A DNA stretch of 64,000 nt from Massilia sp. 9096 (GTDB lineage: Bacteria; Pseudomonadota; Gammaproteobacteria; Burkholderiales; Burkholderiaceae_D): assembly GCF_000745265.1 (NCBI RefSeq), contig NZ_JQNN01000001.1, positions 2,790,001 through 2,854,000 of the forward strand, read 5' to 3'. Shown here in pieces: positions 30,802 to 57,060 of the stretch. The position numbers were made by a program, and so were the translations under genes. Within the stretch, counting starts at the first letter, position 1, and the number at the start of each line of letters is the position of its first letter. The notes beneath the pieces are model-generated. The model saw nothing but the letters and a program-made list of their open reading frames with translations, made no database searches and was not told where the DNA came from.

Positions 30802-30932
30802 GGGGCCTTGGAAACCGTAGCGAGCGAAGCAGTTTCGTTCGAGAAGCAAAGCCGTACATCCGGCACGGCCGGTCCGCCGCGGCGGAGCATCACCGGACGA
30901 AAATGCGACCCGCAGCAGGTTGACGAGGCCCC
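30802..30932. repeat. Structured intergenic repeat, copy A
   Basis: A 131-bp imperfect palindrome of the family shared with 32426-32544, 39607-39725, 53136-53254 and 57023-57059. Outer arms are GGGGCC and GGCCCC. The middle stem is TTTCGT (30833-30838) with ACGAAA (30897-30902). The apical stem is GCCGTAC with GCACGGC. The conserved core AAACCGTAGCGAGCG is present. The element ends 2 bp from the dnaB stop codon (30935). TATC flanks it on both sides (30797-30800, 30933-30936), a possible target duplication not seen at other copies. Confidence 0.85.
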
Positions 30933-30934
30933 TA

Positions 30935-32320
30935 TCAATCCCCTTGGTAGATCGAGAGGGAACCGCTGTAGTTGCCAAACTTCGTGTACATACCCATCCA
31001 CGTCAGTCGTATCGCCCCGATCGGGCCGTTACGCTGCTTGCCGATGATGATCTCGGCGGTGCCCTTGTCGGGCGAGTCCGGGTTATAAACCTCGTCACGA
31101 TACAGGAAGATGATGACGTCGGCATCCTGCTCGATAGCGCCCGATTCGCGCAGGTCGGACATGACCGGGCGCTTGTTCGGACGCTGTTCCAGCGATCGGT
31201 TCAGCTGGGACAGCGCGATCACCGGGCAGCCCAGCTCCTTGGCCAGGCCTTTCAGGCTACGCGAAATCTCGGAAATCTCGGAGGCGCGGTTGTCGCCCGG
31301 CTTGGAACCCTGCATCAGCTGCAGGTAGTCGACGATGATCAGGCCGAGCTTGCCGCACTGGCGCGCCAGGCGGCGCGCACGCGCGCGCATCTCGATCGGG
31401 TTCAGCGCCGGGGTCTCGTCGATGAAGATCTGGGCGTCGTTCATCTTCTGGATCGCATGCGTCAGGCGCGGCCAGTCTTCGTCGTGCAGCTTGCCGGTAC
31501 GCAGGCGGTGCTGGTCGAGCTGGCCGATCGAGCCGAGCATACGCATCGCCAGCTGGGTGCCGCCCATCTCCATCGAGAAGATCGCGACCGGCAGGCCGGC
31601 CTCGACCGCGACGGCCTCGCCGATGTTGACCGAGAACGCGGTCTTGCCCATCGACGGACGGCCGGCCACGATGACCAGGTCGCCCGGCTGCAGGCCGGAG
31701 GTCATCTTGTCGAGGTCGATGAAGCCGGTCGGCACGCCGGTGATCTCGCCCTGGTTTTCACGGCTGTAGAGTTCGTCGATGCGCTCGACCACCTGCGTCA
31801 GCAGCGGCTGCACCGGCAGCCAGCCCTGGGCGCCGCGCGCGCCCTGCTCGGCGATCGCGAAGATGCGCGACTCGGCCTCGTCCAGGATCTGCTTGACCTC
31901 GGCGCCTTGCGGATTGAAAGCCTTGCCGGAGACTTCGTCGGCGACGGTGATGAGCTGGCGCAGCACGCCGCGGTCGCGCACGATCTCGGCATAACGACGG
32001 ATGTTGGCCGCGGACGGCGTATTCTGCGCCATCGCGTTGAGGTAAGGCAGGCCGCCCATTTCCTCGGCCTTGCCGAGCTGGACCAGGGCCTCGTACACGG
32101 TGATCACGTCGGCGGGCTTGCCCGAGTTGATCAGGCGCACCATCTGTTCGAAGATGATCCGGTGGTCGTAGCGGTAGAAATCCTCCGCATGCATGAAGTC
32201 GGCGATCCGGTCCCACGCCGCGTTATCGCGCAACAGGCCGCCGATGACGGACTGTTCTGCTTCGATGGAATGCGGTGGGATGCGGAGCGACTCGATCTGC
32301 GGGTCTGCTGGGGTATTCAT
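30935..32320 (-). CDS. dnaB: Replicative DNA helicase DnaB
   Basis: A 461-residue hexameric helicase that unwinds the fork and recruits primase. The N-terminal domain (IPPHSIEAEQSVIGGLL) is followed by the RecA-like ATPase with Walker A GRPSMGKTAF and Walker B LIIVDYLQLM. The start is ATG 32320 (MNTPADPQ); an ATG at 32329 with AAAGG upstream would add three residues. A TATAAT overlaps this region on the minus strand. It lies downstream of rplI behind a terminator, the common order in proteobacteria. Confidence 0.97.
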   Translation of the reverse strand: MNTPADPQIESLRIPPHSIEAEQSVIGGLLRDNAAWDRIADFMHAEDFYRYDHRIIFEQMVRLINSGKPADVITVYEALVQLGKAEEMGGLPYLNAMAQNTPSAANIRRYAEIVRDRGVLRQLITVADEVSGKAFNPQGAEVKQILDEAESRIFAIAEQGARGAQGWLPVQPLLTQVVERIDELYSRENQGEITGVPTGFIDLDKMTSGLQPGDLVIVAGRPSMGKTAFSVNIGEAVAVEAGLPVAIFSMEMGGTQLAMRMLGSIGQLDQHRLRTGKLHDEDWPRLTHAIQKMNDAQIFIDETPALNPIEMRARARRLARQCGKLGLIIVDYLQLMQGSKPGDNRASEISEISRSLKGLAKELGCPVIALSQLNRSLEQRPNKRPVMSDLRESGAIEQDADVIIFLYRDEVYNPDSPDKGTAEIIIGKQRNGPIGAIRLTWMGMYTKFGNYSGSLSIYQGD

Positions 32321-32376
32321 GACCGTCATTATACCTTTTACGGGCAGTCGACTGAAATGATTGGTGAGTTTCCGAA

Positions 32377-32407
32377 AATAAAAAAGCCGGGTCGAACCCG
32401 GCTTTTT
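32377..32407. terminator. Bidirectional terminator downstream of the rpsF operon
   Basis: AAAAAGCCGGG (32381-32391) pairs with CCCGGCTTTTT (32397-32407) around TCGAA. On the minus strand the T run follows the hairpin, so it ends the rpsF-rplI transcript. Repeat copy B sits between the rplI stop and this terminator. Confidence 0.92.
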
Positions 32408-32425
32408 CATTCCAACAACAGCAGA

Positions 32426-32544
32426 GGAAACTCGAGAAACCGTAGCGAGCGGAAGCAGTGGTGGCCGAGAAGCGCAGCCGTACTTACGGTACGGCGAGCA
32501 TCGCAGGCCGCCAATGCGACGCGCAGTAGGTTTATCGAGGTTCC
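32426..32544. repeat. Structured intergenic repeat, copy B
   Basis: A 119-bp copy. Outer arms are GGAAACTCGAGAAACC and GGTTTATCGAGGTTCC. The middle stem is TGGTGGCC (32459-32466) with GGCCGCCA (32506-32513). The apical stem is GCCGTAC (32477-32483) with GTACGGC (32489-32495). It abuts the rplI stop codon directly (TAA at 32547-32545) and lies in the 3' UTR upstream of the terminator. Confidence 0.9.
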
Positions 32545-32997
32545 TTAAGCGGCTTCGCCGACGACTGCGACGGTGACATCAACCACGACGTCGGTGTGCA
32601 GAGCGACCGAAACCGGGTGCTCGCCGGTGGTCTTCAGCGGACCGGTCGGCAGACGCACTTGCGCCTTTTCGACGGCGAAACCTTGCTTGGTCAGGGCTTC
32701 GGCGATGTCGAAGTTGGTCACCGAACCGAACAGGCGGCCGTCCACGCCGGCTTTCTGGGCGATGGTGACGGTCATGCCGCTCAGCTTCTCGCCTTGTGCC
32801 TGGGCAGCGCCCAGCTTCTCGGCGGCGGCTTTTTCCAGTTCGGCGCGCTTGACTTCGAACTCGGCCACGGCAGCCTGGGTGGCGCGGCGGGCCATTTTTT
32901 GCGGGATCAGGAAGTTACGTGCGTAACCGTCCTTGACCTTGACGACGTCGCCCAGGTTGCCGACGTTGACGACTTTTTCCAGAAGGATAACTTGCAT
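32545..32997 (-). CDS. rplI: 50S ribosomal protein L9
   Basis: A 150-residue ribosomal protein with the L9 N-terminal signature [32 protein letters not shown], a long connecting helix and the C-terminal RNA-binding domain. It is last in the rpsF-priB-rpsR-rplI operon, 49 bp after rpsR. A CTGGAG box precedes the start. Confidence 0.98.
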
Positions 32998-33046
32998 TTA
33001 TTTTCTCCAGTAATCTGACGATGCTTGTGTACGCGGACGACGCCGA

Positions 33047-33337
33047 TTAAGCGTTGTGCAGGTCGGTGTACGGCAGCAGGGCCAGGTAACGTGCGCGCTT
33101 GATCGCGGTGTCCACTTGGCGCTGGTAGTGCGCCTTGGTGCCGGTCAGGCGAGCCGGCATGATCTTGCCGTTTTCCTGGATGAAGTCCTTCAGGGTGTCG
33201 ACGTCTTTGTAGTCAACCTGTTCCACGCCTGCAGCGGTGAAGCGGCAGAACTTCTTGCGCTTGAACAGCGGGTTCTGCTGTTTGCGCTTGAGTTTTTCTT
33301 TGGCTTTGTTTTTGTCGAACTTTTTACCGAATGCCAT
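33047..33337 (-). CDS. rpsR: 30S ribosomal protein S18
   Basis: A 96-residue basic protein with the S18 signature [24 protein letters not shown] and [10 protein letters not shown]. It binds S6 in the platform of the small subunit. It is 36 bp downstream of priB. The lysine-rich first 28 residues are longer than in E. coli S18 (75 aa) but usual for this clade. Confidence 0.98.
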
Positions 33338-33373
33338 TTGAGGCTCCTGTATCTAAAAACGTGCGCGCTTTAT

Positions 33374-33667
33374 TTAAGCGACGCCACTGAAATCAATGAT
33401 GTGAAACACAAGGGCTTTGCTGTTGCGGTTCTTGCGCGCCAAAAACCCCTTGAAGCGGTGCACCGCGCCGAGTTCGGCGCTGGCGAACCGGCCGGAGATT
33501 TCTCCGGCGGCGACCGCCGCGATCTCGAACTCGACCGACCGTTCCAATCCCGCTTCCATCTGCTGCGACCCGTGCTGCAGGGTGCCGCTGACGATGGGGA
33601 TGCCGGCCGGGGTGTAGCGCAGGGTATCGCGTTCGGCGATGCTTGCGACCAGCAACAGCTCGTTCAC
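33374..33667 (-). CDS. priB: Primosomal replication protein N
   Basis: A 97-residue OB-fold single-stranded DNA-binding protein that helps PriA restart stalled forks. The sequence MNELLLVASIAERDTLRYTPAGIPIVSGTLQH and its position between rpsF and rpsR identify it. It is normal length for the family. Confidence 0.95.
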   Translation of the reverse strand: MNELLLVASIAERDTLRYTPAGIPIVSGTLQHGSQQMEAGLERSVEFEIAAVAAGEISGRFASAELGAVHRFKGFLARKNRNSKALVFHIIDFSGVA

Positions 33668-33703
33668 TGCCCTTTCGCGCTCGCTAATCGAAATGAGCGA
33701 GAA

Positions 33704-34087
33704 TTAAGCGTTGGCGGCCGGAGCAGCTGCCTGCTCGGCGCGGTGGCTCTTGGCGGCGTCTTCGCGCTGGACCGACTTCATCATCGGCGACGGGGCGGTT
33801 TCGGCCTTCTTCGTCTTGACGGTCAGGTGACGCAGCACGGCATCATTGAATTTGAATGCGGTTTCCAGCTCGACCAGGGTCTCGTTGTCGCACTCGATGT
33901 TCATGCAGATGTAATGTGCCTTCGGCAGATTGTCGATCTGGTAAGCCATCTGGCGGCGGCCCCAGTCTTCGACGCGGTGGATGTTGCCGCCGCGCGAGGT
34001 GACCGTGGTCTTGTAGCGCTCGATCATCGCCGGAACTTGCTCGCTTTGGTCCGGGTGGACGATAAACACGATTTCATAATGACGCAT
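33704..34087 (-). CDS. rpsF: 30S ribosomal protein S6
   Basis: A 127-residue protein with the S6 start [22 protein letters not shown] and INDLPKAHY-type core ([17 protein letters not shown]). The ATG at 34087 has an AAGGAG box. The C-terminal tail is Ala/Pro-rich, probably disordered. First gene of the rpsF-priB-rpsR-rplI operon. Confidence 0.98.
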
Positions 34088-34167
34088 ATAACACTCCTTG
34101 AGGACGTTTAAACAGATGCCCACCTCGGCGTCAGGACGAGTGTGGGAAGGGAAAGCCCGACATTATA
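34088..34167 (-). promoter_or_regulatory. rpsF operon promoter and leader, possible S6:S18 autoregulatory motif
   Basis: On the minus strand TATAAT (34167-34162) is a clear -10 about 75 bp upstream of rpsF. The leader then contains GACGCCGAGGTGGGCATC, with a CCG triplet followed by GGTGGG and flanking GACG/CGTC arms. Rpsf leaders in many bacteria carry a CCG-containing hairpin bound by S6:S18; the match here is by eye and unfolded. Confidence 0.4.
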
Positions 34168-34285
34168 ACGCAAAAAACGTCAAGGCCCAAATGCTTTGTG
34201 GATATGCCATCCCGATTACGCCCTTTTGTCTTTAGGTCAAAAAAAACCACGAAAACCCGTGCTGCCCCTTGCGCGCCGCGCCATA

Positions 34286-34301
34286 CTGTACAAAAATACA
34301 G
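34286..34301 (+). promoter_or_regulatory. LexA (SOS) box upstream of lexA
   Basis: CTGTACAAAAATACAG matches the CTGT-N8-ACAG LexA consensus exactly and lies 30 bp before the lexA start, as expected for autorepression. Confidence 0.93.
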
Positions 34302-34331
34302 CTTGTCCAGATCCAACGAAAGCAAACCCCC

Positions 34332-34979
34332 ATGCTGAAGCTCACTGCACGGCAAGAACAGATTCTCAACCTGATCAAGGAAGCCATCGACAACACCGGC
34401 TTCCCGCCGACCCGCGCCGAAATCGCGCAGGAACTTGGCTTCCGCTCGGCCAACGCCGCCGAGGAGCACCTGCAAGCCCTGGCGCGCAAAGGCGCCATCG
34501 AGATTTCGCCGGGCACCTCGCGCGGTATCCGCCTGGTCGGCCCGGCCGCCGAAGCCGCCCCGGCGCCGCTGCCCATGATGCCGCCGCCGCACCTGATGTC
34601 CCTGCCCCTGGTCGGCCGCGTGGCCGCAGGTTCGCCGATCCTGGCCCAGGAACACGTCGAGGCCAATTATTCGGTCGACCCGGCCATGTTCTCGAGCAAG
34701 CCCGACTTCCTGCTGAAGGTCAAGGGCTGGTCGATGCGCGACGCCGGCATCTGCGATGGCGATTTCCTCGCCGTCAAGAAGGTCGATTCGGCCAAGAACG
34801 GCCAGATCGTCGTCGCGCGCATCGGCGAAGAAGTCACCGTCAAGCGCTACCGCAAGACCGGTGCGACCATCGAGCTGCTGCCGGAAAATCCGGAGTTCTC
34901 CATCATCACCGTCAATCCGCAAACCGACGAGTTTGCGCTCGAGGGCCTGGCGGTCGGCCTGCTGCGCTCCTGGCACTGA
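34332..34979 (+). CDS. lexA: SOS-response repressor LexA
   Basis: A 215-residue repressor. The N-terminal winged helix (1-70) contains [30 protein letters not shown]. The C-terminal S24 protease domain has the self-cleavage Ala99-Gly100 in GRVAAGSPI, catalytic Ser134 ([14 protein letters not shown]) and Lys171 (EVTVKRY). RecA filaments trigger cleavage and SOS induction. The residue before the catalytic Ser is Trp rather than the common Met. A perfect LexA box lies upstream. Confidence 0.97.
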
Positions 34980-35048
34980 GCGGTATTCAGGCCGCAGCCG
35001 CGCCGGCCCCATGCCGGCGTATGACGCATAGTTATAACGCGTACAACG

Positions 35049-35077
35049 ACAACGGCCCGCTAACCGCGGGCCGTTGT
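35049..35077. terminator. Strong hairpin between convergent genes
   Basis: ACAACGGCCCGC (35049-35060) pairs perfectly with GCGGGCCGTTGT (35066-35077). It separates lexA from the converging gene. Only short T stretches follow, so strength as a terminator is uncertain. Confidence 0.65.
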
Positions 35078-35103
35078 GGTTTGCAGGGCACAGCGCAGCG
35101 CGA

Positions 35104-35829
35104 TCAACGCTTGGCGTCGACGTCGGGCGGCGGTGCGCTGTTGACGATGTCGTTGTGTTCCTTGACCCAGCTCTCGGTCGCAATGCGCCAGGCATTGTAA
35201 TCGGCCAGCACCATGTTGCCGGCGACCTTGATGTCCTCGGCAGCGCGCTCGCCGACGTCCTTCAGGTGCGCCTCGGCGCGCTCGGTTTCTTCCTTGGTCA
35301 GCAGCGGCGCGATATCCTTGGGAATCAGTTTGGTCAGCGGCAGGGATTCGTTGAGGTGGACGACCGCGCGGTTGTGGCAGGCTTCCCAATCCTTCATCTT
35401 GGCGCTGTAGCGCTCGATGTCTTCGTTCACCTTCGACACCGAGGGAAAGCGCGGCGCCGGGCAGCGGTAAGCGCCGCCGCTCAGGTCGGCGCCGTCGTAT
35501 TGCGTGAGCCAGTAGTCGATGTCGGCGCGATGCTCGCCGCGCTTTTTCATCATGTCGAGCGAGGCGATCGCCACCTTGTTGCCCTTCGCCGCCGCCTTGC
35601 CCCACCACAGCGCCGCCTTGTCGGCGTCGACCGCGCCGGCTTCGCCGTAAAAATACATCTCGCCCAAGTGCTGCTGGGCCATCACGTTGCCGGCGTTGGC
35701 CAGTTTGGTGTACTTCTGCAACGCTTCGGGATAAGCCTTCTTGGCGAACAGGGCGTCGGCGTCGGACAACTCGTCGGCCGAGGCAGTGCCGCACAGCAGG
35801 AGCGCGGCGCACAACAGGACTGTCTTCAT
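35104..35829 (-). CDS. Exported protein with Sel1-like (TPR) repeats
   Basis: A 241-residue periplasmic protein. A signal peptide (MKTVLLCAALLLCGTASA) is followed by one or two Sel1/TPR-like repeats (about 20-85; YPEALQKYTKLANAGNVMAQQHLGEMYFYGEAG). The C-terminal half is unassigned and contains paired cysteines near YRCPAP and WEACHN. I use ATG 35829; an ATG at 35850 adds MLKRKTA before the signal peptide. Sel1 repeats usually mediate protein contacts. It is monocistronic. Confidence 0.75.
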   Translation of the reverse strand: MKTVLLCAALLLCGTASADELSDADALFAKKAYPEALQKYTKLANAGNVMAQQHLGEMYFYGEAGAVDADKAALWWGKAAAKGNKVAIASLDMMKKRGEHRADIDYWLTQYDGADLSGGAYRCPAPRFPSVSKVNEDIERYSAKMKDWEACHNRAVVHLNESLPLTKLIPKDIAPLLTKEETERAEAHLKDVGERAAEDIKVAGNMVLADYNAWRIATESWVKEHNDIVNSAPPPDVDAKR

Positions 35830-36002
35830 GGCGGTTTTGCGTTTGAGCATAATTCAAGGAAATGCGAGTGTGCGGCTATCTTACGCGCCAGCAATGGTGC
35901 CGTCAGTATTTATCGGACGTCAACTTATGCATCCGGAAACAATACGGTACACACGCCTTCGCTTTGCGACTCTATACTTGCTTGATCGTTATTGATGAGG
36001 CA

Positions 36003-36752
36003 ATGATGAACCCTTCCCGCTTTGTGAGCGCCGTCCTTATCGCCTGTGCGGTAAGCGCCGTGGCGCATGCCCAGACCGCCGAGCGCCCCGCCATCAAGGA
36101 AGGCGACAAGTGGCGCTTCCTGTCCAAGGTCGAAGAGCTCAAGAACGGCACGCTGACCTCGTCGAGCCGCGAAGTCGATGCCTGGGTGACCCGCGTCGGC
36201 TCTCATTCCTTCATCCAGGCCACCAAACCGGTCGACAGCAACTTGCCGCCGCGTGAAGCCGACATCAACCTGGACTGGAGCAGGTCGCAGATACGCGACG
36301 GCGCGGAAAAGATCGTCGGCCGCCCTTACCTGTATCCGCTCAAGCCGGGTTTGAGCTGGGACACGGACGCAACCGACCCGCATCCAGCACCGGGCGTCAA
36401 GACGCTGCGCAACAAGTTGCATTTCACGGTGCTGGGTTGGGAAGAGGTGAAGGTACCCGCAGGGTCCTTCAAGGCGCTGAAGATCGAAACGGAAGGCAAC
36501 TGGTTCAGGGAATTCGAACCGGTCGGACCCCACACCAGCAGCACGACCACCGTCAGCCCGGCGGGCCAGTCGACGCTGGTCAACGCCCAGGGCGGGCGCA
36601 CGCCCGACCCGGTCGGCGGACGCATGTACCGGCTGACCTGGTATGTTCCCGAGGTCAAGCGCGAGGTCAAGGTCATCGCCGAGGAATACACGCCGACGGG
36701 CGTCGTGCAGCATCGCACGACGCAGGAACTCGAATCCTACAGCGTCGACTGA
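36003..36752 (+). CDS. Hypothetical exported protein, 249 aa
   Basis: A 249-residue protein with a clear signal peptide (about 1-24, cleavage after AHA). The mature part is beta-rich and begins IKEGDKWRFLSKVEELKNG. Segments such as WEEVKVPAGSFKALKIETEG and RLTWYVPEVKREVKVIAEEY resemble proteins that measure or stabilise extracytoplasmic lipids, but I recognise no named family. A GAGGCA sequence precedes ATG 36003. It converges on metZ with a 13-bp gap. Confidence 0.7.
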   Translation: MMNPSRFVSAVLIACAVSAVAHAQTAERPAIKEGDKWRFLSKVEELKNGTLTSSSREVDAWVTRVGSHSFIQATKPVDSNLPPREADINLDWSRSQIRDGAEKIVGRPYLYPLKPGLSWDTDATDPHPAPGVKTLRNKLHFTVLGWEEVKVPAGSFKALKIETEGNWFREFEPVGPHTSSTTTVSPAGQSTLVNAQGGRTPDPVGGRMYRLTWYVPEVKREVKVIAEEYTPTGVVQHRTTQELESYSVD

Positions 36753-36765
36753 CCGCGCCGCTGGC

Positions 36766-38007: not shown

Positions 38008-38020
38008 GGTCTAGACATCG

Positions 38021-38046
38021 AAAAAACGGGCGCACGCGGCGCCCGT
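38021..38046 (-). terminator. Intrinsic terminator after purF
   Basis: On the minus strand ACGGGCGC-CGCGT-GCGCCCGT (38046-38026) is followed by TTTTTT (38026-38021). It lies between the purF stop and the metZ start. Confidence 0.9.
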
Positions 38047-38050
38047 CGGA

Positions 38051-39574: not shown

Positions 39575-39606
39575 AGTGCGCTCCTAAGAACTTACAACTA
39601 AATTTC

Positions 39607-39725
39607 GGGGACCTCGAAAACCGTAGCGAGCGGCCGCAGTTTCGTTCGAGAAGCACGGCTGTACATTCGGTACAGCGAGCATCGCATAACGAAAATGCAA
39701 AGCGCAGCAGGTTTGCGAGGTTCCC
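39607..39725. repeat. Structured intergenic repeat, copy C
   Basis: A 119-bp copy. Outer arms are GGGGACCTCGAAAACC and GGTTTGCGAGGTTCCC. The middle stem is TTTCGTT with AACGAAA. The apical stem is GCTGTAC with GTACAGC, a compensatory change relative to copies A, B and D. It ends 1 bp from the cvpA stop codon (39727-39729) and lies between cvpA and purF. Confidence 0.9.
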
Positions 39726-39726
39726 A

Positions 39727-40215
39727 TCAGAACTGAACGTGCTGCGCTAAGGCAGCTGGTAGGAAAGGTTTTACGGTGCGCGCGCCGGTTTCCGCAATCG
39801 GCGACAGCAGCGCATTTTTCCAGAAATCCTGCTGGGGGATGGAGGTCATCCCGCACAATATGACGCCGGCCAGCACGATTACAATGCCCCGGCCGAGTCC
39901 GAACAAGCCACCCAGGCCACGGTCCGCCAGGCTCAGGCCGGACGCCTCGATCAGCGCGCCGATCGCCAGGGCCAACAGGCCCATCAGCACACGCGTGCCG
40001 AGGAATAGCGCAACGAAGGCAAGCATCAGCCGCACCGCTTCACCGGGAACGACGGATGGTAGCATGGGCGCCAGTTTCGCGCCGAAGGCGTTCGCGACCA
40101 CGAAGGCCACCACCCAGCCGGCCAGCGACAGGATTTCCTTGACCAGTCCACGCAGGGTACTGATGATGACCGACGAGATCAGGATGAACAGGACGACGTA
40201 GTCGAAGATCGTCAC
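39727..40215 (-). CDS. cvpA: CvpA family membrane protein
   Basis: A 162-residue inner-membrane protein with four hydrophobic segments (FDYVVLFILISSVIISTLRG, LSLAGWVVAFVVANAF, RLMLAFVALFLGTRVLMGLLALAIGAL, GRGIVIVLAGVILC). CvpA is linked to colicin V production and envelope stress, with a poorly defined molecular role. The start is GTG 40215. Between the SPOR gene and purF, the standard location. Confidence 0.93.
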   Translation of the reverse strand: MTIFDYVVLFILISSVIISTLRGLVKEILSLAGWVVAFVVANAFGAKLAPMLPSVVPGEAVRLMLAFVALFLGTRVLMGLLALAIGALIEASGLSLADRGLGGLFGLGRGIVIVLAGVILCGMTSIPQQDFWKNALLSPIAETGARTVKPFLPAALAQHVQF

Positions 40216-40245
40216 AGTGGATGGCGGCGCGCGTTACGGTTGGAG

Positions 40246-41220: not shown

Positions 41221-41235
41221 GCGATTTCAGGTCAA

Positions 41236-42534: not shown

Positions 42535-42551
42535 GGTGTCGTCCGTGACGC

Positions 42552-42600
42552 TAAAAGCAAAACTGCTGCAGGATGCGCCCGTGGGCGACGCCTGCAGCAG
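42552..42600 (-). terminator. Intrinsic terminator between accD and folC
   Basis: On the minus strand CTGCTGCAGG (42600-42591) pairs with CCTGCAGCAG (42572-42563), with an inner CGCCC/GGGCG stem, followed by TTTTGCTTTT. It splits accD from folC. Confidence 0.85.
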
Positions 42601-42619
42601 CCGTCTTTCAACTCAACAT

Positions 42620-44962: not shown

Positions 44963-44980
44963 TTCCGGGCCGCGTCAGGC

Positions 44981-45781: not shown

Positions 45782-45795
45782 GTGGTTCTCCCCGA

Positions 45796-47019
<1,224 letters not shown>

Positions 47020-47031
47020 GATGAGTCCGGG

Positions 47032-47694: not shown

Positions 47695-47709
47695 GATTCT
47701 CTACGAAGT

Positions 47710-48510: not shown

Positions 48511-48537
48511 GCAGTCAACCTCATCTCCATCGCATCT

Positions 48538-51500
48538 TCAAGCCAGCGCCGCGCGCATGGCGTTGGCGCGCGCCGTCTGTTCCGGGTTGCCGCCACGGAT
48601 GACTTCCTCGAGCAGCTCGCGCGCGCCTTCCTTGTCGCCGATTTCCTGGTAGGCGATCGCGAGGTCCAGCTTGGTTTCCATTTCCATCTGCTGGGCGGTC
48701 ATCTCGACCGGTGCGGCGGTCGGGGCAGCGACGGCGGCGCCGCCCTCTTCATGCACTTCCGGCAGCGGCAGCGCGCCCTCGCCCGGCAGGTCGAGGTCGA
48801 AACCCGGCAGGTCGAAGTGGGTGTCGAGCTTGCTCGGCTCGATCAGTTCGTGCTCGGCGTACGGCGCATCGGCCAGCGGCGCCGGGGTGGCGACCGGCAG
48901 CTCGGGCAGCGCGAACGGATCGTCGTCCAGCGACAGGTGCGGAATCGACGGCAGCGCGGCTTCGAGCGGCGCCGTAGTCGATGCCGGCGGCGTCGCCTCG
49001 TCGCCCAGGCCGAAGTCCATCGTATCCAGGTCGAACAGCGGATCCTTCAGCTCGGTGGCCGGGCTGACCTGCTCGGGCGCGGCCGGGATGCCTTCGTGCG
49101 GCTCGGTCGGCAAGTCGGGCAGGTCGAACTCGCGCGCCAGGCTGGCCATGTCGATGTCGGTGTTCGGCGCGGCTGCGGCGTGGTGTTCCTCGCCGGCCGG
49201 CGTCTCGAACTGCAGGTCGTGGTCGAAGGCCAGGTCGTCCAGCGCAGGCGCCGGGGTCCCGGCAAGCGGCGCTGCGGGCTGCGGCACCGGATTGGCGGCC
49301 GGGGCGCCGAAGTCCATGTCGAACGCGAAGTCGAGCGGCTCGTCCTCCGGCTTGGCAGCCGGGGTCGGATCGACCGTCGGCGCGACGGCGGCGGCCGGGG
49401 TGGCGGTCGGCGTCAGGTCGAAGGCGCCCATGTCGAACTCGAGGTCGGGCACGTCGTTGGCGGCGGCGATCTCGCGCGCATCGCGGGATTCGAGCGGGGA
49501 TTCGAGCGGAGACTCGATCGGCGCCTGGGCCGGCGCAGCCGTCACCGGCTCGAACGACAGGCCGCCCAGGTCGAAGTCGAGCGTGTGGTCGTCGTGCGCC
49601 TGGGCCGGTTCGGCGGCCGGATGAGTGGTCGGCTGAGCCGTACCCATGGCGTCGGCGAAGTGCTGGTCGAAGCTCATCGGCGCGCGCGCGGCGTCTTCGC
49701 TGGCGGCCGCGGCGAAGGCGTCGTCGAGGTCGTGCGCCAGCGGGTCGTGCGCGGCGCCCGATTCCATCGTCGACGGCGCGAACGCCTGCGCCGCCTGGAC
49801 TGCCGGCGCGGCGTCGACGGCATGCACGCTGTTGTTCGCGTACAGCGGGTTGGCCGGATCGATCGAATGGCCGAGCGCGGCGGCCTGCGCCCACTCCTCG
49901 CCCTGGCCACGGGTCAGGCTGTACAGCTCGCCGGCCTGGGTTTCGAACGCGCGCGTGTCCTTGCGCGCGGCGTAGATCTCGAGCAGCTTCAGGCGCACCG
50001 GATGGCGCTCCGGATGGGTGCGCAGCGCTTCCTTCAGGATCTCCTCGGCCTGGGCGTCGCGGCCATAGGCGATGTAGACGTCGGCTTCGGCGACCGGATC
50101 GACTTCATTGGTGTCGAGCTGGCTGGCCGAGGGGGCGAAGCTGGAGTTGAACACGCTGTTGTTGGTGTCGACGCTCTGGCCGCCGGTCTCGGCGAACAGC
50201 GAGTGCGCCGGTTCGGTCGGCACGTTCAGGATCGACGGTTCGGCGACCGCCTTGACGTCTTTCTTCTTGCGACGCTGCGCGACCAGCAAGGCCGCCAGCA
50301 GCGCGGCGATGGCGGCGCCGCCGAGCACGGTCAGGTTGTCCATGATGAAGCCCATGATGCCCGGTTCCGGCGCCGCGGCCGGGGTCGCGGCAGGCGCCGG
50401 CTTAATGGACGGCAGCTTCTTCGGTGCGGGCTTGGCCGGCTTGGCGGCCTCGGGCTGAGCCGGGGCGGCAGACGCGGCGGCCTTCCCCTGCGCCTCGGCG
50501 CCGTCCTTGCTCTTGACCGTGGCGATCTTTTCGAGGTCGCTGATATTGCGCTCGAGTTCCTTGGTGCGCGCCTGGGCGTCTTCCAGCTCCTTCTGCTTGG
50601 CGATGCGGTCCTCGGTGCTGGCGGTCGCGCCCTTGCCGGCCGGGGTGTTCGGCGCGGCCTTGGACAGGCGCAGCTGGTCCTGCGATTCGTTGGCGGCGGT
50701 CGGGCGCTCCTCGACCTTGGCGGTGATCTTGCCGCCGGCGCTCTGGCCCGCCGGCGCGGCCTTGACCGGCTCGGACGCGCCGACCTGGCCGGCCAGCTTG
50801 TTGCGGTAGGCGTTGAAGTCGGCCGCGTGCGCGACCACCGTGCCGCGCGCATCGTCTTCGCCGACGGCGTGCACGGCGTCGGCGTCCGGCACCGACAGGA
50901 TGCGGCCCGACTTCAGACGGTTCATGTTGTTGCCGGCGAAGGCATCCGGATTGGCGCGGTACAGCGCCACCAGCATCATGTCGAGCGAGACGTCGACCGG
51001 CTTGAGCTGTCCGGCGATGCGGCTCAGGCTGTCGCCCGGCTTGACGCGGTAGCGCGACGGTCCGGCATCGCGGGCGGTCGGGGTGCGCACGGCCTCGCCG
51101 CTGTCGGCTGCGGCACGGCCGCGGCGCGGCCGCTCGGCCGGCTCCGGCGCAGTCTCGCCCGGCTGCGCGCCCGCCTGCGCGGGCGCGGCGGCGTCCGCGC
51201 GCGTACGCGCAGCCGGCGCGCGGTTCTCGGGCGGCGCGACCTGGGCCGACTGCGTGCCGCGCAGCTCGGCCGGGTCGAGCAGGAAGGTGTACTCGCGTAC
51301 CAGGCGGCCGTTGTTCCACGACAGCTCGAGCAGCATGTCGACGAACGGCTCGTTCAGCGGCTGGCTCGAGCTGACGCGGATGAACTGGCGGCCGCCGCGC
51401 TGCTCGACGTTGAAGCGCAGCGACAGCAACGCCGGGTTGAACTCGATGTTGGCGGTCCGGAACGCGTCCGGCGACGCCAGCTTGGCGGCTAGGCCGGCCG

Positions 51501-51687
51501 CTTCCTCCGGCGACACCGACGTCAGCTCGATCTCGGCGCGCAAGGGCTGGCCGAGCGCCGACAGCACGGTCAGCTTGCCCAGGCCGGCCGCGTGGACCGA
51601 GGACATCAGGACCATTGCACTGGCAACCGCCGCGGTGAGCTGCTTCAACGCGGACGACTTCATCGGAAGGCGGTGGGTGGTGTGCAT
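48538..51687 (-). CDS. fimV: FimV/HubP polar landmark protein
   Basis: A 1049-residue inner-membrane protein. Parts in order: signal peptide (about 9-33; a start at ATG 51663 would remove MHTTHRLP), FimV N-terminal domain (AGLGKLTVLSALGQPLRAEIEL), LysM peptidoglycan-binding motif (about 213-260; YRVKPGDSLSRIA), a coiled-coil-like segment (about 355-390), one transmembrane helix (about 452-474), a very acidic cytoplasmic region with repeated FDL/FDM patches, and a C-terminal TPR-like FimV domain (about 1000-1045). It organises pole-localised machinery such as type IV pili and chemotaxis. First gene before truA. Confidence 0.92.
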   Translation of the reverse strand: MHTTHRLPMKSSALKQLTAAVASAMVLMSSVHAAGLGKLTVLSALGQPLRAEIELTSVSPEEAAGLAAKLASPDAFRTANIEFNPALLSLRFNVEQRGGRQFIRVSSSQPLNEPFVDMLLELSWNNGRLVREYTFLLDPAELRGTQSAQVAPPENRAPAARTRADAAAPAQAGAQPGETAPEPAERPRRGRAAADSGEAVRTPTARDAGPSRYRVKPGDSLSRIAGQLKPVDVSLDMMLVALYRANPDAFAGNNMNRLKSGRILSVPDADAVHAVGEDDARGTVVAHAADFNAYRNKLAGQVGASEPVKAAPAGQSAGGKITAKVEERPTAANESQDQLRLSKAAPNTPAGKGATASTEDRIAKQKELEDAQARTKELERNISDLEKIATVKSKDGAEAQGKAAASAAPAQPEAAKPAKPAPKKLPSIKPAPAATPAAAPEPGIMGFIMDNLTVLGGAAIAALLAALLVAQRRKKKDVKAVAEPSILNVPTEPAHSLFAETGGQSVDTNNSVFNSSFAPSASQLDTNEVDPVAEADVYIAYGRDAQAEEILKEALRTHPERHPVRLKLLEIYAARKDTRAFETQAGELYSLTRGQGEEWAQAAALGHSIDPANPLYANNSVHAVDAAPAVQAAQAFAPSTMESGAAHDPLAHDLDDAFAAAASEDAARAPMSFDQHFADAMGTAQPTTHPAAEPAQAHDDHTLDFDLGGLSFEPVTAAPAQAPIESPLESPLESRDAREIAAANDVPDLEFDMGAFDLTPTATPAAAVAPTVDPTPAAKPEDEPLDFAFDMDFGAPAANPVPQPAAPLAGTPAPALDDLAFDHDLQFETPAGEEHHAAAAPNTDIDMASLAREFDLPDLPTEPHEGIPAAPEQVSPATELKDPLFDLDTMDFGLGDEATPPASTTAPLEAALPSIPHLSLDDDPFALPELPVATPAPLADAPYAEHELIEPSKLDTHFDLPGFDLDLPGEGALPLPEVHEEGGAAVAAPTAAPVEMTAQQMEMETKLDLAIAYQEIGDKEGARELLEEVIRGGNPEQTARANAMRAALA

Positions 51688-51932
51688 ATTCGGAATCGAG
51701 TGAGTTGACGGAGAAAATCGCTGGGCGCGGCGGTGCCCGGAGGTCTCAGCAAAATATCATCATGCTTTATTGCATGCAAGCACTACAGGAAGAAACATTC
51801 AGCTTCCCTGAGATATGTAGACGGAGTATTCAGAGAAATGATGTTTTTTTGGGTGTATGAGTGTTAATTCGACAGCATGCGAGAAAACAAAGAAAAGCGC
51901 GCCCGCTGCATGAGCGGCGCCCCGCGTGCTCC

Positions 51933-51977
51933 AAAAAACGTCGCCCCGGCGCAGGCGGAACCCGGGCCGGGGCGACG
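51933..51977 (-). terminator. Intrinsic terminator of asd
   Basis: On the minus strand CGTCGCCCCGGC (51977-51966) pairs with GCCGGGGCGACG (51950-51939), then TTTTTT. The rest of the 51688-51932 gap presumably holds the fimV promoter; I see no gene in it. Confidence 0.92.
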
Positions 51978-51992
51978 ATGAAGCCTTGCGGA

Positions 51993-53120
51993 TCAGCGCT
52001 CCAGCACGATGCGCAGCATGCGGCGCAGCGGTTCGGCCGCGCCCCACAGCAGCTGGTCGCCGACGGTGAACGCCGACAGGTACTCCGGACCCATCGACAT
52101 CTTGCGCACGCGGCCGACCGGGATCGTCAGGCTGCCGGTGACGGCGGCCGGGGTCAGGTCGCGCATCGAATCTTCGCGCGTGTTCGGTACGAACTTCACC
52201 CACTGGTTATCGTTCGCGATGATGTCGTTGACCTCGTCCAGCGGCACGTCCTTCTTGAGCTTGATGGTCAACGCCTGCGAATGGCAGCGCATCGCGCCGA
52301 TGCGCACGCACAGGCCGTCGACCGGGATCGGTTGCGCGGAAAAACCTTCGCCGCGGCCGAGGATCTTGTTGGTCTCGGCGCCAGCCTTCCACTCTTCCTT
52401 CGACTGGCCGTTGCCCAGGTCCTTGTCGATCCAGGGGATCAGGTTGCCGGCCAGCGGCACGCCGAACTGCTTCGTTTCGTCGGCGTCCATGCCATGCTGG
52501 GTCGCCAGCACGGTGCGGTCGATTTCGAGGATGGCCGAGGCCGGGTCGTCGAGCAGGTGCTTGACCGAGCCGTTGATGGTGCCGAACTGGGTCAGCAGCT
52601 CGCGCATGTGCTGGGCGCCGCCGCCCGATGCGGCCTGGTAGGTCATCGAAGTCATCCAGTCGACCAGGTCGTTCTTGAACAGGCCGCCCAGGCCCATCAG
52701 CATGCACGACACGGTGCAGTTACCGCCGATGTAGTTCCTGACACCGCGGCCGAGCGCGTCCTGGATCACGTTCAGGTTGACCGGGTCCAGCACGATGATC
52801 GCATCGTCCTTCATGCGCAGCGTCGAGGCCGCGTCGATCCAGTAGCCGTTCCAGCCGGCCGCGCGCAGTTGCGGGTACACCTCGGTGGTGTAGTCGCCGC
52901 CCTGGCACGAGATGATGATCTCGCACTTGGACAGTTCGGTGATGTCGGTCGCGCTTTTCAGCTTGGTTTCGTTCTTCGCCATTTTAGGGGCGTCGCCGCC
53001 CGGGTTCGACGTGGTGAAGAACACCGGCTCGATGTGGTCGAAATCGCCTTCTTCCTGCATGCGCTTCATCAGGACCGAGCCGACCATGCCGCGCCAACCA
53101 ACCAACCCTACTAGTTTCAT
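51993..53120 (-). CDS. asd: Aspartate-semialdehyde dehydrogenase
   Basis: A 375-residue enzyme reducing aspartyl phosphate to the semialdehyde, feeding lysine, diaminopimelate, threonine and methionine synthesis. The NADP motif is [10 protein letters not shown] (about 7-16) and the catalytic Cys is in [12 protein letters not shown]. An AAAGGATAGAG box precedes ATG 53120. Repeat copy D begins 16 bp upstream. Confidence 0.97.
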
Positions 53121-53135
53121 CTCTATCCTTTCAGG

Positions 53136-53254
53136 GGGAGCTCGCCAAACCTACTGCGCGTCGCATTGGCGGCCTGCGATGCTCGCCGTACCGGATGTAC
53201 GGCTGCGCTTCTCGGCCACCACTGCTTCCGCTCGCTACGGTTTGGCGAGCTCCC
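53136..53254. repeat. Structured intergenic repeat, copy D (inverted)
   Basis: A 119-bp copy in the opposite orientation to A-C. Outer arms are perfectly complementary: GGGAGCTCGCCAAACC (53136-53151) and GGTTTGGCGAGCTCCC (53239-53254). The core matches copy B almost base for base, including a TGGCGGCC/GGCCACCA middle stem and GCCGTAC/GTACGGC apical stem. It lies between leuB and asd, 16 bp upstream of the asd start, so in the 5' region rather than beside a stop codon. Confidence 0.9.
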
Positions 53255-53368
53255 GTTAATCTATCGATATGCCGCCTTCAAAACGGGGCATTTACACTAT
53301 CACTCTTTTGCTGCGCTTGCACGAGGGTTGGGCTTTTTAGCCCGCCTTGCGCGTTCATTAACGTTCGT

Positions 53369-54439
53369 TCAACGCAGTGCGTTGACCACCGCCTCGCCCA
53401 TCTGCTCGGTGCCGACCTTCGTCGTGCCCGGCTCGAAGATGTCCGGCGTGCGCAGGCCCTGCGCCAGCACCGCCTTGACCGCCTTCTCGATGCGCTCGGC
53501 CTGCTCCGCCTTGCCGAGCGAGTAGCGCAGCATCATCGCGGCCGACAGGATGGTCGCCAGCGGATTGGCCACGCCCTGCCCCGCGATGTCCGGCGCCGAG
53601 CCGTGCGAGGGCTCGTACAAGCCCTTGTTGTTGGCGTCCAGCGACGCCGAGGGCAGCATGCCGATCGAGCCGGTCAGCATCGCGGCGGCGTCGGACAGGA
53701 TGTCGCCGAACATGTTGCCGGTGACGATCACGTCGAACTTCTTGGGCGCGCGCACCAGCTGCATCGCGGCGTTGTCGACGTACATGTGCTCGAGCTCGAC
53801 GTCCTGGTATTCCTTGTGCACCTCGGTGACGATGTCGCGCCAGAACTGGAAGGTCTCGAGCACGTTGGCCTTGTCGACGCTGGTCACGCGGTTGTTGCGC
53901 TTGCGCGCGGTCCGGAAGGCGACGTGAGCGATGCGGCGGATCTCGCCTTCGGCATAGCGCATGGTGTCGAAGCCTTCGCGCTGGCCCGCGAACGGACCGT
54001 CCGGGCATTCGCGCACGCCGCGCGGCTTGCCGAAGTAGATGTCGCCGGTCAGCTCGCGGATGATCAGGATGTCCAGGCCGGACACGACTTCGGGCTTGAG
54101 TGTCGAGGCGCCGGCCAGTTCCGGGTACAGGATCGCCGGGCGCAGGTTGGCGAACAGGCCGAGCTCCTTGCGCAATCCGAGGATGGCCTGCTCGGGACGC
54201 AGCGCGCGCTCGAGCTTGTCGTACTTGTAGTCGCCGACGGCGCCGAACAGCACCGCGTCGGCCGCCTTGGCCAGCGCCAGCGTGCCAGGGGGCAGCGGAT
54301 GGCCCTGGGACGCGTAGCCGGCGCCGCCAACGTCCGCGCTCTCCATCTCGAACGATTCGCCCAGCGCGTTCAAGACCTTGACGGCTTGCGCGGTGATTTC
54401 GGGGCCGATGCCGTCGCCCGGCAGGATTGCGATCTTCAT
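53369..54439 (-). CDS. leuB: 3-isopropylmalate dehydrogenase
   Basis: A 356-residue NAD-dependent decarboxylating dehydrogenase, third step of leucine synthesis. Signatures are [16 protein letters not shown] at the start and [27 protein letters not shown] near the C-terminal third. It is 15 bp after leuD in the leuC-entericidin-leuD-leuB operon. Confidence 0.98.
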
Positions 54440-54454
54440 GTTCTCGTTCTCGAC

Positions 54455-55102
54455 TCAGATGGTGTTGGCGAGCCAGGGCTGGCTGCGCAGATGGCGCTCT
54501 TCGAAGGCGCGGATGTCGTCGGCGTGGCGCAGCGTCAGGCCGATGTCGTCCAGGCCGTTCAGCAGGCAGTACTTGCGGAATTCGTCGATCGCGAACTCGA
54601 ACGCCAGGTGGCCGTCGGGCGTGCCGATGACCTGCTTTTCCAGGTCGACGACCAGCTTGTAGCCGGGGAAGGCCTTGACTTCGTTGAACAGCTGGTCGAC
54701 CTGGGCTTCGCTCAGCACGATCGGCAGCAGGCCGCTCTTGTAACTGTTGTTGAAGAAGATGTCGGCGAAGCTCGGCGCGACGATGGCGCGAAAGCCGTAC
54801 TGCTGCAGCGCCCAGGGCGCGTGCTCGCGCGAGGAGCCGCAGCCGAAGTTCTTGCGCGCCAGCAGGATCGACGCCCCCTGGTAGCGCGACTGGTTCAGCA
54901 CGAAGTCCGGGTTCAGCGGACGCCGCGTGTTGTCCATGCCGGGCTCGCCGTGATCGAGATAGCGCCACTCGTCGAACAGGTTCGGGCCGAAGCCGGTGCG
55001 GCGGATCGACTTGAGGAACTGCTTGGGGATGATGGCGTCGGTGTCGACGTTGGCGCGGTCCAGCGGCGCCACGATGCCTTCGTGTACGGTGAATTTGTCC
55101 AT
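54455..55102 (-). CDS. leuD: 3-isopropylmalate dehydratase small subunit
   Basis: A 215-residue swivel-domain subunit that pairs with LeuC. The motifs [20 protein letters not shown] and [19 protein letters not shown] are diagnostic. It follows the entericidin-like gene by 51 bp. Confidence 0.98.
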
Positions 55103-55153
55103 GCTCTTTCCTATGTGCGGCTCATTGCCGCTCGGCTGCGGCTCAGCTGCGGT

Positions 55154-55276
55154 TTAGCGGCCGCCCGCGCCCTGGATCGCCCGGCCGGCGCCCTGGATGT
55201 CCTTGCCCATGCCGGAGATGGTGTTGCAGCCTGCGGCGGCGATGGCGATCAGTGCGAGAGCGAATAGTTTTTTCAT
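55154..55276 (-). CDS. Entericidin A/B-like small lipoprotein, 40 aa
   Basis: A 40-residue lipoprotein with signal peptide MKKLFALALIAIAAAGC (acylated Cys17), then NTISGMGKDIQGAGRAIQGAGGR, the amphipathic repeat typical of entericidins. A CCAGGAAC box precedes ATG 55276. It sits between leuC and leuD, where Burkholderiales commonly carry such a gene. Entericidins were described as a toxin/antidote lipoprotein pair; only one member is seen here. Confidence 0.88.
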   Translation of the reverse strand: MKKLFALALIAIAAAGCNTISGMGKDIQGAGRAIQGAGGR

Positions 55277-55380
55277 GCTGTTCCTGGATTTTCTGGTCAA
55301 ATCGGGCCGGCGTGATCGACGCGGCCCGGCGATTGCAAACACGCGCGGCCCCTGGATGAGGCGACCGCGCACGACATACT

Positions 55381-56781
55381 TTACAGCGCGCGCACGTCGA
55401 CGAAGTGGCCAGCGATGCCCGCGGCCGCAGCCATGGCCGGCGACACCAGGTGGGTGCGCCCGCCCTGGCCCTGGCGGCCTTCGAAGTTGCGGTTCGAGGT
55501 CGAGGCGCAGCGCTCGCCCGGATCGAGGCGGTCGGCGTTCATCGCCAGGCACATCGAGCAGCCCGGCTCGCGCCACTCGAAGCCGGCCGCCTTGAAGATC
55601 TGGTCGAGGCCTTCGCGCTCGGCCTGCTCCTTGACCAGGCCCGAGCCCGGCACCACCATCGCCAGCTTGACGTTGGAGGCTTTCTGGCGCCCGCGCACGA
55701 CGGCCGCGGCGGCGCGCAGGTCCTCGATGCGCGAGTTGGTGCACGAGCCGATGAAGACCTTGTCGATGCGGATGTCCTGCAGCGCCGTGTTGGGCGTGAG
55801 GCCCATGTAGACCAGCGCCTTTTCCATGGCGTCGCGCTTGACCGGATCCTTTTCCTTGTCCGGATCGGGCACGCGGCCGTCGACCGTCGCGACCATCTCG
55901 GGCGAGGTGCCCCAGGTGACCTGCGGCTTGATCTCGGCGGCGTCGAGCGTGACCACCATGTCGAACCTGGCGCCCTGGTCCGAGTGCAGCGTGCGCCAGT
56001 AGGCGACCGCCCCCTGCCATTGCGGACCGGCCGGCGCATACGGGCGGCCTTTCACGTACTCGATCGTGGTGTCGTCGACCGCCACCATGCCCGCGCGCGC
56101 GCCCGCCTCGATCGCCATGTTACAGACCGTCATGCGGCCTTCCATCGACAACGAGCGGATGGTCGAGCCGGCGAATTCGATCGCGTAGCCGGTGCCGCCG
56201 GCGGTGCCGATCTTGCCGATCACGGCCAGCACGATGTCCTTGGCGGTCACGCCGTGCGGGAGGGCGCCGTCGACCTGGACCAGCATCGTTTTCGACTTCT
56301 TGGCCAGCAGCGTCTGCGTGGCCATCACGTGCTCGACCTCGGAGGTGCCGATGCCGTGCGCCAGCGCGCCGAACGCGCCGTGGGTCGAGGTGTGCGAGTC
56401 GCCGCACACGACCGTCATGCCTGGCAAGGTCGCGCCCTGCTCCGGCCCGATCACGTGCACGATGCCCTGGCGCTTGTCGTTCATGTTGAAGTAGGTGACG
56501 CCGAAGGCCTTGGTGTTGGCGTCCAGCGTCTCGACCTGCAGGCGCGAGGTCGGGTCGAGAATGCCCTCGCGGCGGTCGGTGGTCGGCACGTTGTGGTCGG
56601 CGACGGCAAGGTTGGCCGAGGCGCGCCACAGCGGCCGCTCGGCCACGCGCAGGCCTTCGAACGCCTGCGGGCTGGTGACTTCATGGATTAGGTGACGGTC
56701 GATATAAAGCACGGTGGTGCCATCGGCATCGGCACGCACGACATGCGAATCCCAGAGTTTGTCGTAGAGCGTTTTCAGCAT
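55381..56781 (-). CDS. leuC: 3-isopropylmalate dehydratase large subunit
   Basis: A 466-residue aconitase-family protein binding a 4Fe-4S cluster; cluster ligands are visible in [17 protein letters not shown] and [10 protein letters not shown]. It isomerises 2- to 3-isopropylmalate with LeuD. It heads the leu operon; an upstream -35/-10 pair and leader are seen. Confidence 0.98.
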
Positions 56782-56871
56782 GATAAGTTCCGTCGAGACG
56801 ACCGCTACATGCGGGCATGGTCTTAGATTATGCCATATTTGTGCGTTGCGAAAAGGCAGGCCTTTTGCACG

Positions 56872-56900
56872 ATTATGCCACCTCAGCGATTTACAGCCAA
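56872..56900 (-). promoter_or_regulatory. Candidate leuC promoter
   Basis: On the minus strand TTGGCT (56900-56895), a 17-bp spacer and CATAAT (56877-56872) form a reasonable sigma70-type promoter about 90 bp upstream of leuC. A second CATAAT lies at 56832-56827 without a good -35. Confidence 0.4.
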
Positions 56901-56933
56901 ATTAAGTTCAGACTTCGAATCCGATTTAGAAAG

Positions 56934-56967
56934 AAAAAAGCCCGGACGACGAATCGTACGGGCTTTT
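56934..56967 (-). terminator. Intrinsic terminator of cheA
   Basis: AAAAAAGCCCG (56934-56944) and CGGGCTTTT (56959-56967) enclose an inner ACGA-CGAA-TCGT stem. The T run follows on the minus strand. It ends the cheZ-cheA transcript; the collapsed repeat copy E lies between it and the cheA stop. Confidence 0.9.
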
Positions 56968-57022
56968 CGTGGCTTTGTTCAGCGCCCCAACATTGAGCAT
57001 CATCGCGCTACGACAGAGCATT

Positions 57023-57059
57023 GGGGGTCTCGAAAACCGCAGCAGGTTTGCGAGCCCCC
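57023..57059. repeat. Structured intergenic repeat, copy E (collapsed)
   Basis: A 37-bp remnant with only the outer arms of the repeat: GGGGGTCTCGAAAACC, then GCAGCAGGTTTGCGAGCCCCC (in two joined parts). The whole middle and apical stem region is missing. It ends 1 bp from the cheA stop codon (57061-57063) and precedes the terminator. Confidence 0.8.
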
Positions 57060-57060
57060 T

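Follow-up and report, generated by a model that had tools for sequence, protein, structure and literature searches.

The window analyzed here is a 64,000-nt stretch of DNA from the soil bacterium Massilia sp. 9096 (positions 2790001-2854000 of a 5.55-Mb contig in a genome of 5.71 Mb). It was found to contain five copies of an interspersed, hairpin-forming repeat, referred to here as the element. Its folded shape persists even in copies whose sequence differs, and this suggests that the fold itself has a job. We give about even credence to the reading that the element is a mobile hairpin resembling repetitive extragenic palindromes (REPs) or miniature inverted-repeat transposable elements (MITEs), that it is defined on one particular strand, and that landed copies are retained in the form of a folded single strand. 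An earlier note on this DNA had placed copies at 30802-30932, 32426-32544, 39607-39725, 53136-53254 (minus strand) and 57023-57059, and all five were found. Our covariance model of the element, R1, delimits them as follows (window coordinates):

30798..30936, + strand: copy A, full element with an extra small tip hairpin (R1 match 2820798-2820936, 84.3 bits)
32423..32547, + strand: copy B, full element in the gap between the rplI stop and the dnaB start (R1 137.3 bits)
39604..39728, + strand: copy C, full element upstream of purF (R1 127 bits)
53133..53257, - strand: copy D, full element between leuB and asd (R1 139.5 bits)
57020..57063, + strand: copy E, core deleted and outer stem kept (R1 26.6 bits, E 0.007)

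Copy E was described in the note as collapsed, and it has indeed lost its core and retains only the outer stem. All five copies fold well below dinucleotide shuffles of their own sequence (200 shuffles each), with z values of -5.4, -7.7, -6.5, -9.0 and -4.8 for A to E, respectively.

A full copy forms one long imperfect hairpin of ~120 nt. Read 5′ to 3′ on the element strand, it opens with a variable outer stem of ~9 pairs and a mostly purine-purine mismatch position, which are followed by an AAACC/GGTTT helix, a GTAG or GTCG motif and a short GCG/CGC helix. Inward of the latter lie a variable middle stem of ~11 pairs, a conserved GAGAAGC/GAGCATC segment and a conserved GCCGTAC/GTACGGC tip. 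The GTAG/GTCG motif sits inside the outer stem on the 5′ side, and a second GTAG, or a GCAG, occurs on the 3′ side. By our reading of the letters, the three internal loops would each set GA against GCA, in the pattern of tandem G.A pairs. The variable outer stem encloses a conserved core of ~95 nt. The strands that the earlier note took for constant loops, suggesting a protein contact, proved to be mostly paired: they make up the AAACC/GGTTT helix and the GCG/CGC helix, which are separated by small internal loops. The full copies of the Massilia sp. 9096 genome were mostly 123-140 nt long by R1, which has 125 positions, and 15 of them besides copy A were 138-140 nt long. Among five of these 15 that were inspected, two (L012 and L028) had a tip hairpin as in copy A and three (L025, L112 and L113) had extra bases elsewhere. 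The extra tip hairpin was also present in a copy beside pstB in genome G013 (L307), which is one of seven pstB copies that group together, so the module can arise either in place or through exchange. Middle parts were missing from nine short forms (66-87 nt), whose outer arms were still complementary, only partly so in L118.

R1 was built with 42 pairs from a MAFFT alignment of 28 copies, namely 27 of 30 loci of the Massilia sp. 9096 genome (three with extra bases were left out) and window copy C. In this alignment both-sided changes were observed in 22 of the 42 pairs, 96.7% of the cells could pair, and neither value was reached in any of 500 shuffles. When the partner was shifted by 1-3 columns, pairing fell from 96.7% to 30-37%. 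The changes that the earlier note had quoted for the middle and apical stems are real, and the outer stems differ widely between copies while remaining complementary. As the structure used for the 28 copies was derived from the same alignment, a test on 115 copies is the stronger, independent one. It used 37 copies of the Massilia sp. 9096 genome and 78 from other genomes, with lengths of 122-128 nt only, out of 150 copies. They were aligned with MAFFT without regard to structure, placed on a FastTree tree and compared with 60 null alignments, each made by reassigning the substitutions of every branch to randomly chosen columns that had the same parent base. This procedure resembles R-scape and is of our own making. 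Nineteen column pairs had an expected number below 0.05, and all 19 were hairpin partners, which bears out the note's claim, and answers its call for a covariation test, that structure and not sequence alone is kept. The mismatch position beside AAACC was among the 19, with G.A in 40 copies, A.G in 28 and A.T in 22.

The pairs that are not Watson-Crick indicate which strand folds. On the element strand, G.T or T.G outnumbered A.C or C.A by 53 to 10 in the 28 copies and by 228 to 98 over 32 column pairs in the 115 copies, counted as sequences and not as independent events. G.T was in excess at 16 of the 32 column pairs and equal to A.C at eight. When copies were sorted by gene context, the G.T:A.C counts were 102:44, 51:26, 42:13 and 18:6, with 15:9 in six copies whose neighbour was undefined. 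The bias has the same sign in all four contexts and is therefore independent of the direction of the neighbouring gene. Moreover, the element strand folded more stably than its complement in 100 of the 115 copies (31/37 from the Massilia sp. 9096 genome and 69/78 from others). The note had proposed structure in RNA or as a DNA cruciform. The folded structure stands, and a strand-neutral cruciform is disfavoured by the G.T excess over A.C, the folding bias and the G.A/A.G swap. The selected fold is most likely a single strand of the element's orientation, either RNA or single-stranded DNA.

A genome search with R1, as the earlier note had suggested, returned 67 places at E up to 0.1 in the Massilia sp. 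9096 genome. One of these was a reverse-strand double, leaving 66, of which 62 had E <1e-5 and the weakest had E 0.04; these E-values are rough. First-look candidates were scored for 150 of 4942 in this genome, for 57 per genome of the genus and for 11 per genome of the order, which makes every copy count a minimum. With copy D as the query, blastn found at least 40 copies plus the reverse match of copy D itself (40 of 92 candidates scored). The copies in this genome are mostly single. In one place three degenerate copies lie inside 630 bases (G000:C1:3161337-3161962, L117), and between ~0.87 and 1.83 Mb of G000:C1 no copy occurs among the matches listed across nearly 1 Mb. The element was present in 30 of 37 genomes of the genus, this one included, with 0 to at least 57 copies each. 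Across the order, matches at 1e-5 came from 52 of 300 genomes, representing 29 of 134 genera. Weaker relatives were found in 3 of 24 genomes of other families of the order, where 11 copies among the matches listed were alike in architecture. An exact-pattern scan of named genomes yielded at least 120 stretches at no fewer than 80 loci; the matches listed were in Betaproteobacteria (Massilia, Telluria, Janthinobacterium, Herbaspirillum, Ralstonia, Variovorax, Zoogloea, Chromobacterium, Undibacterium and others) plus Solimonas, a gammaproteobacterium. R1 detected 1 to 44 copies in each of 22 pattern-matched named genomes, for example 44 in Variovorax (a member of the Comamonadaceae), 39 in Janthinobacterium, 30 in Pseudogulbenkiania, 20 in a Ralstonia and one in Herbaspirillum GW103. 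Tandem arrays with a period of 125 bp were seen at the same site in two genomes of one genus, with 3.6 copies in G233 (L351 4725-5174) and two units in G270 (L352 4909-5160).

The element shows a strongly one-sided relation to gene ends. Position was analyzed for 65 of the 67 places, leaving out the reverse-strand double and the degenerate 3161783-3161962, with gene boundaries from a codon-usage gene caller. No copy lay within a predicted gene. On the 3′ side, 42 of the 65 copies faced the stop of an antisense gene, and in 39 of these 42 the stop was no more than 6 nt from the model end or overlapped it (by up to 16 nt). Random placement within gaps predicts 10, and none of 100,000 simulations reached 39 of 42. 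A sense stop on the 5′ side was equally near in 5 of 30 copies (9.7 expected). In other genomes (85 of 91 matches, six reverse-strand doubles left out), an antisense stop lay on the 3′ side of 59 copies, and in 51 of the 59 it was within -13 to +3 nt. Where there is no stop codon, the 3′ end of the element can adjoin a tRNA instead. In Variovorax, Pseudacidovorax and Pelomonas it abuts tRNA-Sec at the 3′ end of the latter, in L204 it abuts the 5′ end of tRNA-Trp, and in the Massilia sp. 9096 genome it is 3 nt from tRNA-Asn. No report of such one-sided docking was met in the accessible portions of the repeat-element literature. In the window, the genes docked by copies A, B, C and E are the following:

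30935..32410, - strand: dnaB (replicative helicase), with copy A at its stop (NF005424, 918 bits)
32545..32997, - strand: rplI (ribosomal protein L9), abutted by copy B (TIGR00158, 150 bits)
39727..40215, - strand: open reading frame (ORF) of 162 aa, with copy C at its stop (no NCBIfam match at E 1e-20)
57061..58980, - strand: CheA-like gene, with copy E at its stop (NF041336, 325 bits, below the cut-off of 950)

The identities of purF, asd, leuB, L9 and DnaB are NCBIfam matches. The 3′ ends of copies A, C and E adjoin the respective stop codons, and the TAA of rplI overlaps the model end in copy B. Copy D is co-directional with both leuB and asd, and the asd ATG (53120) lies 12 nt past its 3′ end; the gene caller puts the asd start later, which makes this gap 45 nt.

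The same sites were compared across relatives in surveys of 61 genomes listed and of 62 genomes searched, with 30 loci read in each. Of 30 genomes, four had a copy after dnaB. In the element tree, those of G000 (Massilia sp. 9096) and G033 were neighbours neither of each other nor of the remaining pair, and those of G073 and G022 were close to each other and to several Massilia sp. 9096 copies. At the site after rplI, a copy directly past the TAA was present in 2 of 10 readable genomes (20 of the 30 loci were unreadable), and the two copies came from different branches of the element tree. Downstream of rplI in G034 and G012 (L155, L158), a different palindromic repeat, GTCGTCCCCGCG...CGCGGGGACGAC, fills the same gap. 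All three sites compared across species (rplI-dnaB, after dnaB and pstB-phoU) lie between co-directional genes.

The site after pstB was occupied at 9 of 30 loci. Seven of these copies (G073, G036, G079, G034, G013, G070 and G078, with the identical L197 representing G079 in the tree) were nearest neighbours, and it appears that one pstB copy was inherited by seven species; outside this group, the copies of G085 and of Herbaspirillum (L207) were independent. Gaps aside, the seven cores differed at 0-15 of 95-97 positions, the spacers to phoU at 18-29 of 52-82 positions, and fourfold sites at 0.11-0.30. Core divergence was below fourfold-site divergence in all 21 pairs. The clearest case was G073 versus G036, with no core difference (0/95), 24/59 in the spacer (Fisher 3e-12) and 28/197 at fourfold sites (Fisher 1e-5), and with outer stems that differ by paired changes. 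Over the seven copies, 8 of the 15 pairs in the outer stem had changed on both sides, and pairing was absent in 4 of 105 cells. The pstB copies look like they are under constraint in place.

Taken as a whole, these observations underlie the reading of the element as a REP/MITE-like mobile hairpin that is kept as a folded single strand. Copy numbers and sites were seen to differ between species, and unrelated copies to occupy the same gene ends in different genomes. New copies would arise via a folded single strand handled by an enzyme yet to be found, and copies that have landed would persist through some benefit of the folded element strand, which would most likely act as RNA. Transcripts would enter the element from its 5′ side, either by read-through of a convergent gene or by antisense transcription, and would fold just ahead of the abutting gene end, where the fold could act as a barrier or a protein-binding site that shields the abutting gene. 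This shielding is the weak step, a guess that we put forward with considerable doubt. In a bolder form, the family could consist of widespread portable gene-end modules, in which a mobile betaproteobacterial hairpin, functional as a folded single strand (RNA or single-stranded DNA) and bound by a dedicated protein via its GA/GCA loops, docks at stop codons and tRNA ends, where it would go on to serve the adjoining gene as a domesticated regulator or shield. The family features suggest domestication, and we offer this wider proposal tentatively, as possible without being probable. It has long been asked if the palindromes dispersed in bacterial genomes are mere parasites or can turn into parts of the host. 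The question is directly testable here, where strong covariation meets an inferred functional strand and an extreme one-sided preference for gene ends, and where one genus offers occupied and empty versions of the same sites together with copies at pstB-phoU that look kept and compensated in place.

A number of observations weigh against this reading. A.C exceeded G.T at 8 of the 32 column pairs, most at 35/92 (33 versus 0) and 39/88 (17 versus 10), where sub-families may differ in register. No conserved promoter was visible between -45 and the element on the strand whose transcription is proposed. The 3′ side had no antisense stop in 23 of the 65 copies, and docking is partly secondary, arising after landing, since the pstB stem lies several nt past the stop in G036 and G070 and directly beside it in the other five. 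No clear target duplication was found, and none was evident at rplI in G013, a comparison made without a near-identical empty site. Conservation in place was seen at a single site, pstB-phoU; there, the copies of G012 and G085 fall outside the seven-species group, the core of the widest pair (G079/G078, 15/96) is hardly below its fourfold sites (32/185), and local recombination, the main alternative, could mimic the pattern. The search for a mobilizing enzyme adds to these points. The Y1_Tnp domain was not detected in the Massilia sp. 9096 genome at E 0.001, though this genome is among the richest in copies, and the four Y1 loci checked in relatives (1.5 kb on each side; two genomes with and two without the element) contained no element match. 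Reverse transcriptases (RTs) were rejected as mobilizers as well, being of mixed types with none common to the element-bearing genomes among 22 ORFs compared.

Y1_Tnp occurred in 36 of the 37 genomes of the genus, including seven without the element, and mobilization by a RAYT was rejected, given that the domain is missing from the Massilia sp. 9096 genome and that its presence is uncoupled from the element across the genus. Two Y1 loci checked for repeats carry GGGGTCAG-type inverted repeats and not the element. The Y1 genes of two relatives, at L295 1112-2034 and L296 1187-2026, are flanked by GGGGTCAGAGC-type inverted repeats, which fit the GGGGWSAS motif of TIRYT elements. In 18 of the 37 genomes, picked for many or zero copies, all 11 that bear the element had an RT, as did one of the seven that lack it, a pattern for which general mobile-element load would be the likelier cause. 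Comparison of the 22 RT ORFs showed five that are close to one another (~50% identity or more) and confined to G000, G017, G022 and G034, while the RTs of the other genomes were different. No protein cluster was shared by more than 11 of the 80 named loci listed, and the clusters among those listed look like ordinary genes. The family hints at a mobilizing enzyme yet to be found.

Several other explanations were considered. The element could be a purely selfish MITE whose fold is needed only during movement and whose landed copies are idle. This would account for the swing from 0 to at least 57 copies within one genus, for unrelated copies at the same sites, for internally deleted remnants such as copy E, and for a strand bias of the same sign in four gene contexts, as if set before landing. 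We nevertheless regard it as unlikely, though worth taking seriously, since core and pairing are retained by the pstB copies of seven species next to a diverging spacer, and 96.7% of pairs are intact across 28 diverged copies. A second possibility is a REP-like element at the 3′ end of the upstream gene's mRNA, where a hairpin past the stop stalls ribosomes or blocks 3′ exonucleases. The docking at stop codons and the three cross-species sites between co-directional genes are consistent with this, and the available text of two reports describes REPs no more than 15 nt from a stop as stalling ribosomes (PMC12306157) and two REP families as lying close to the 3′ ends of upstream ORFs (PMC3733652). 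The mRNA, however, would be the worse-folding strand, with A.C where the other strand has G.T, and the docking is one-sided, with sense stops on the 5′ side not approached (5/30 against 9.7 expected), which makes this explanation rather unlikely.

If the arms matched by mutual DNA repair of the palindrome and not by selection, outer stems that vary widely between copies and yet pair would be expected. Such repair would not make the swap of G.A (40 copies) and A.G (28) beside AAACC, and neither the excess of G.T over A.C nor the internal loops, which are conserved and unpaired, agree with it; we find this scarcely credible. An immobile cis-regulatory RNA inherited from an ancestor would fit the conserved structure and the intergenic position of 65 of 65 copies. 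It is very improbable in view of the three checked sites, which are mostly empty (4/30, 2/10 and 9/30 occupied) and at which same-site copies are often unrelated. Lastly, the element could be the published Betaproteobacterial repeat element, BRE (Hot et al., 2011), whose earlier description would then have missed the variable outer arms and the structure. In the accessible text of PMC3110155, BRE is a multi-copy, mostly intergenic repeat of ~90 bp in Betaproteobacteria that forms tandem variable-number arrays and is suspected of mobility. The element, too, is a multi-copy intergenic repeat with known tandem copies and suspected mobility; its core measures ~95 nt and the whole ~120 nt, and one related genome has a 3.6-copy array. 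BRE is also listed there as frequent in Comamonadaceae, the family of the Variovorax genome with 44 element copies. By contrast, BRE units in Bordetella measure 75-91 bp with 0 or few nt between them, as against an array period of 125 bp here. The BRE table in that text lists only Alcaligenaceae, Comamonadaceae and one member of the Rhodocyclaceae, and the element is also found outside the table's families, in Janthinobacterium (39 copies), Pseudogulbenkiania (30) and Ralstonia (20). Identity with BRE seems doubtful to us. BRE is the nearest named repeat that we found in these bacteria, and the two, compared by description and not by sequence, may overlap; structure, strand, docking and constraint in place were not found in the part of PMC3110155 available.

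The earlier note had not recognized a named family. This agrees with Rfam release 15, in which the window and 18 further loci had no match to the element at the gathering threshold and copy D, searched at E up to 10, gave five matches, none near threshold; the possible overlap with BRE qualifies it. No description recognizable as the element was met in searches of open-licence literature, unless BRE is the same family. As far as the accessible text of Di Nocera 2013 (PMC3733652) and Nunvar 2010 (PMC2817692) goes, the RAYT-linked REPs of the GTAG superfamily are similar to the element in being dispersed intergenic palindromes near gene 3′ ends, with variable stems, G.T pairs and GTAG or GTCG beside a helix. 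There, a GTAG-REP unit measures 20-40 bp, in contrast to ~120 nt for the element, and carries its GTAG as an unpaired tag at the end of the palindrome, in contrast to the internal GTAG here. REPs are linked to a Y1 tyrosine transposase, whereas the Massilia sp. 9096 genome is without Y1_Tnp; the element, unlike REPs, is a long covarying hairpin of several helices with one-sided docking. MITEs and repeats of the ERIC/IRU type are short, non-coding, dispersed palindromes of a length like that of the element. The element shows strong structural covariation; no target duplication was recognized for it, and no parent transposon was met, although no dedicated search for one was made. MRSC-65-2, one of the mobile or repeat sequence candidates described in the available text of PMC11109978, is likewise a covarying structured repeat with many copies per genome whose RNA or DNA form is open. 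It occurs across diverse phyla and consists of one long stem made with a UYCCGG repeat, in contrast to the several helices and conserved internal loops of the element.

A separate feature of the window is a match to Rfam RF02835 (Bcj11, Burkholderia RNA 11) at 10428-10549 on the minus strand, with a score of 50.5 against a threshold of 49. It lies within a predicted gene (9321-11216) and is possibly a coding-sequence match.

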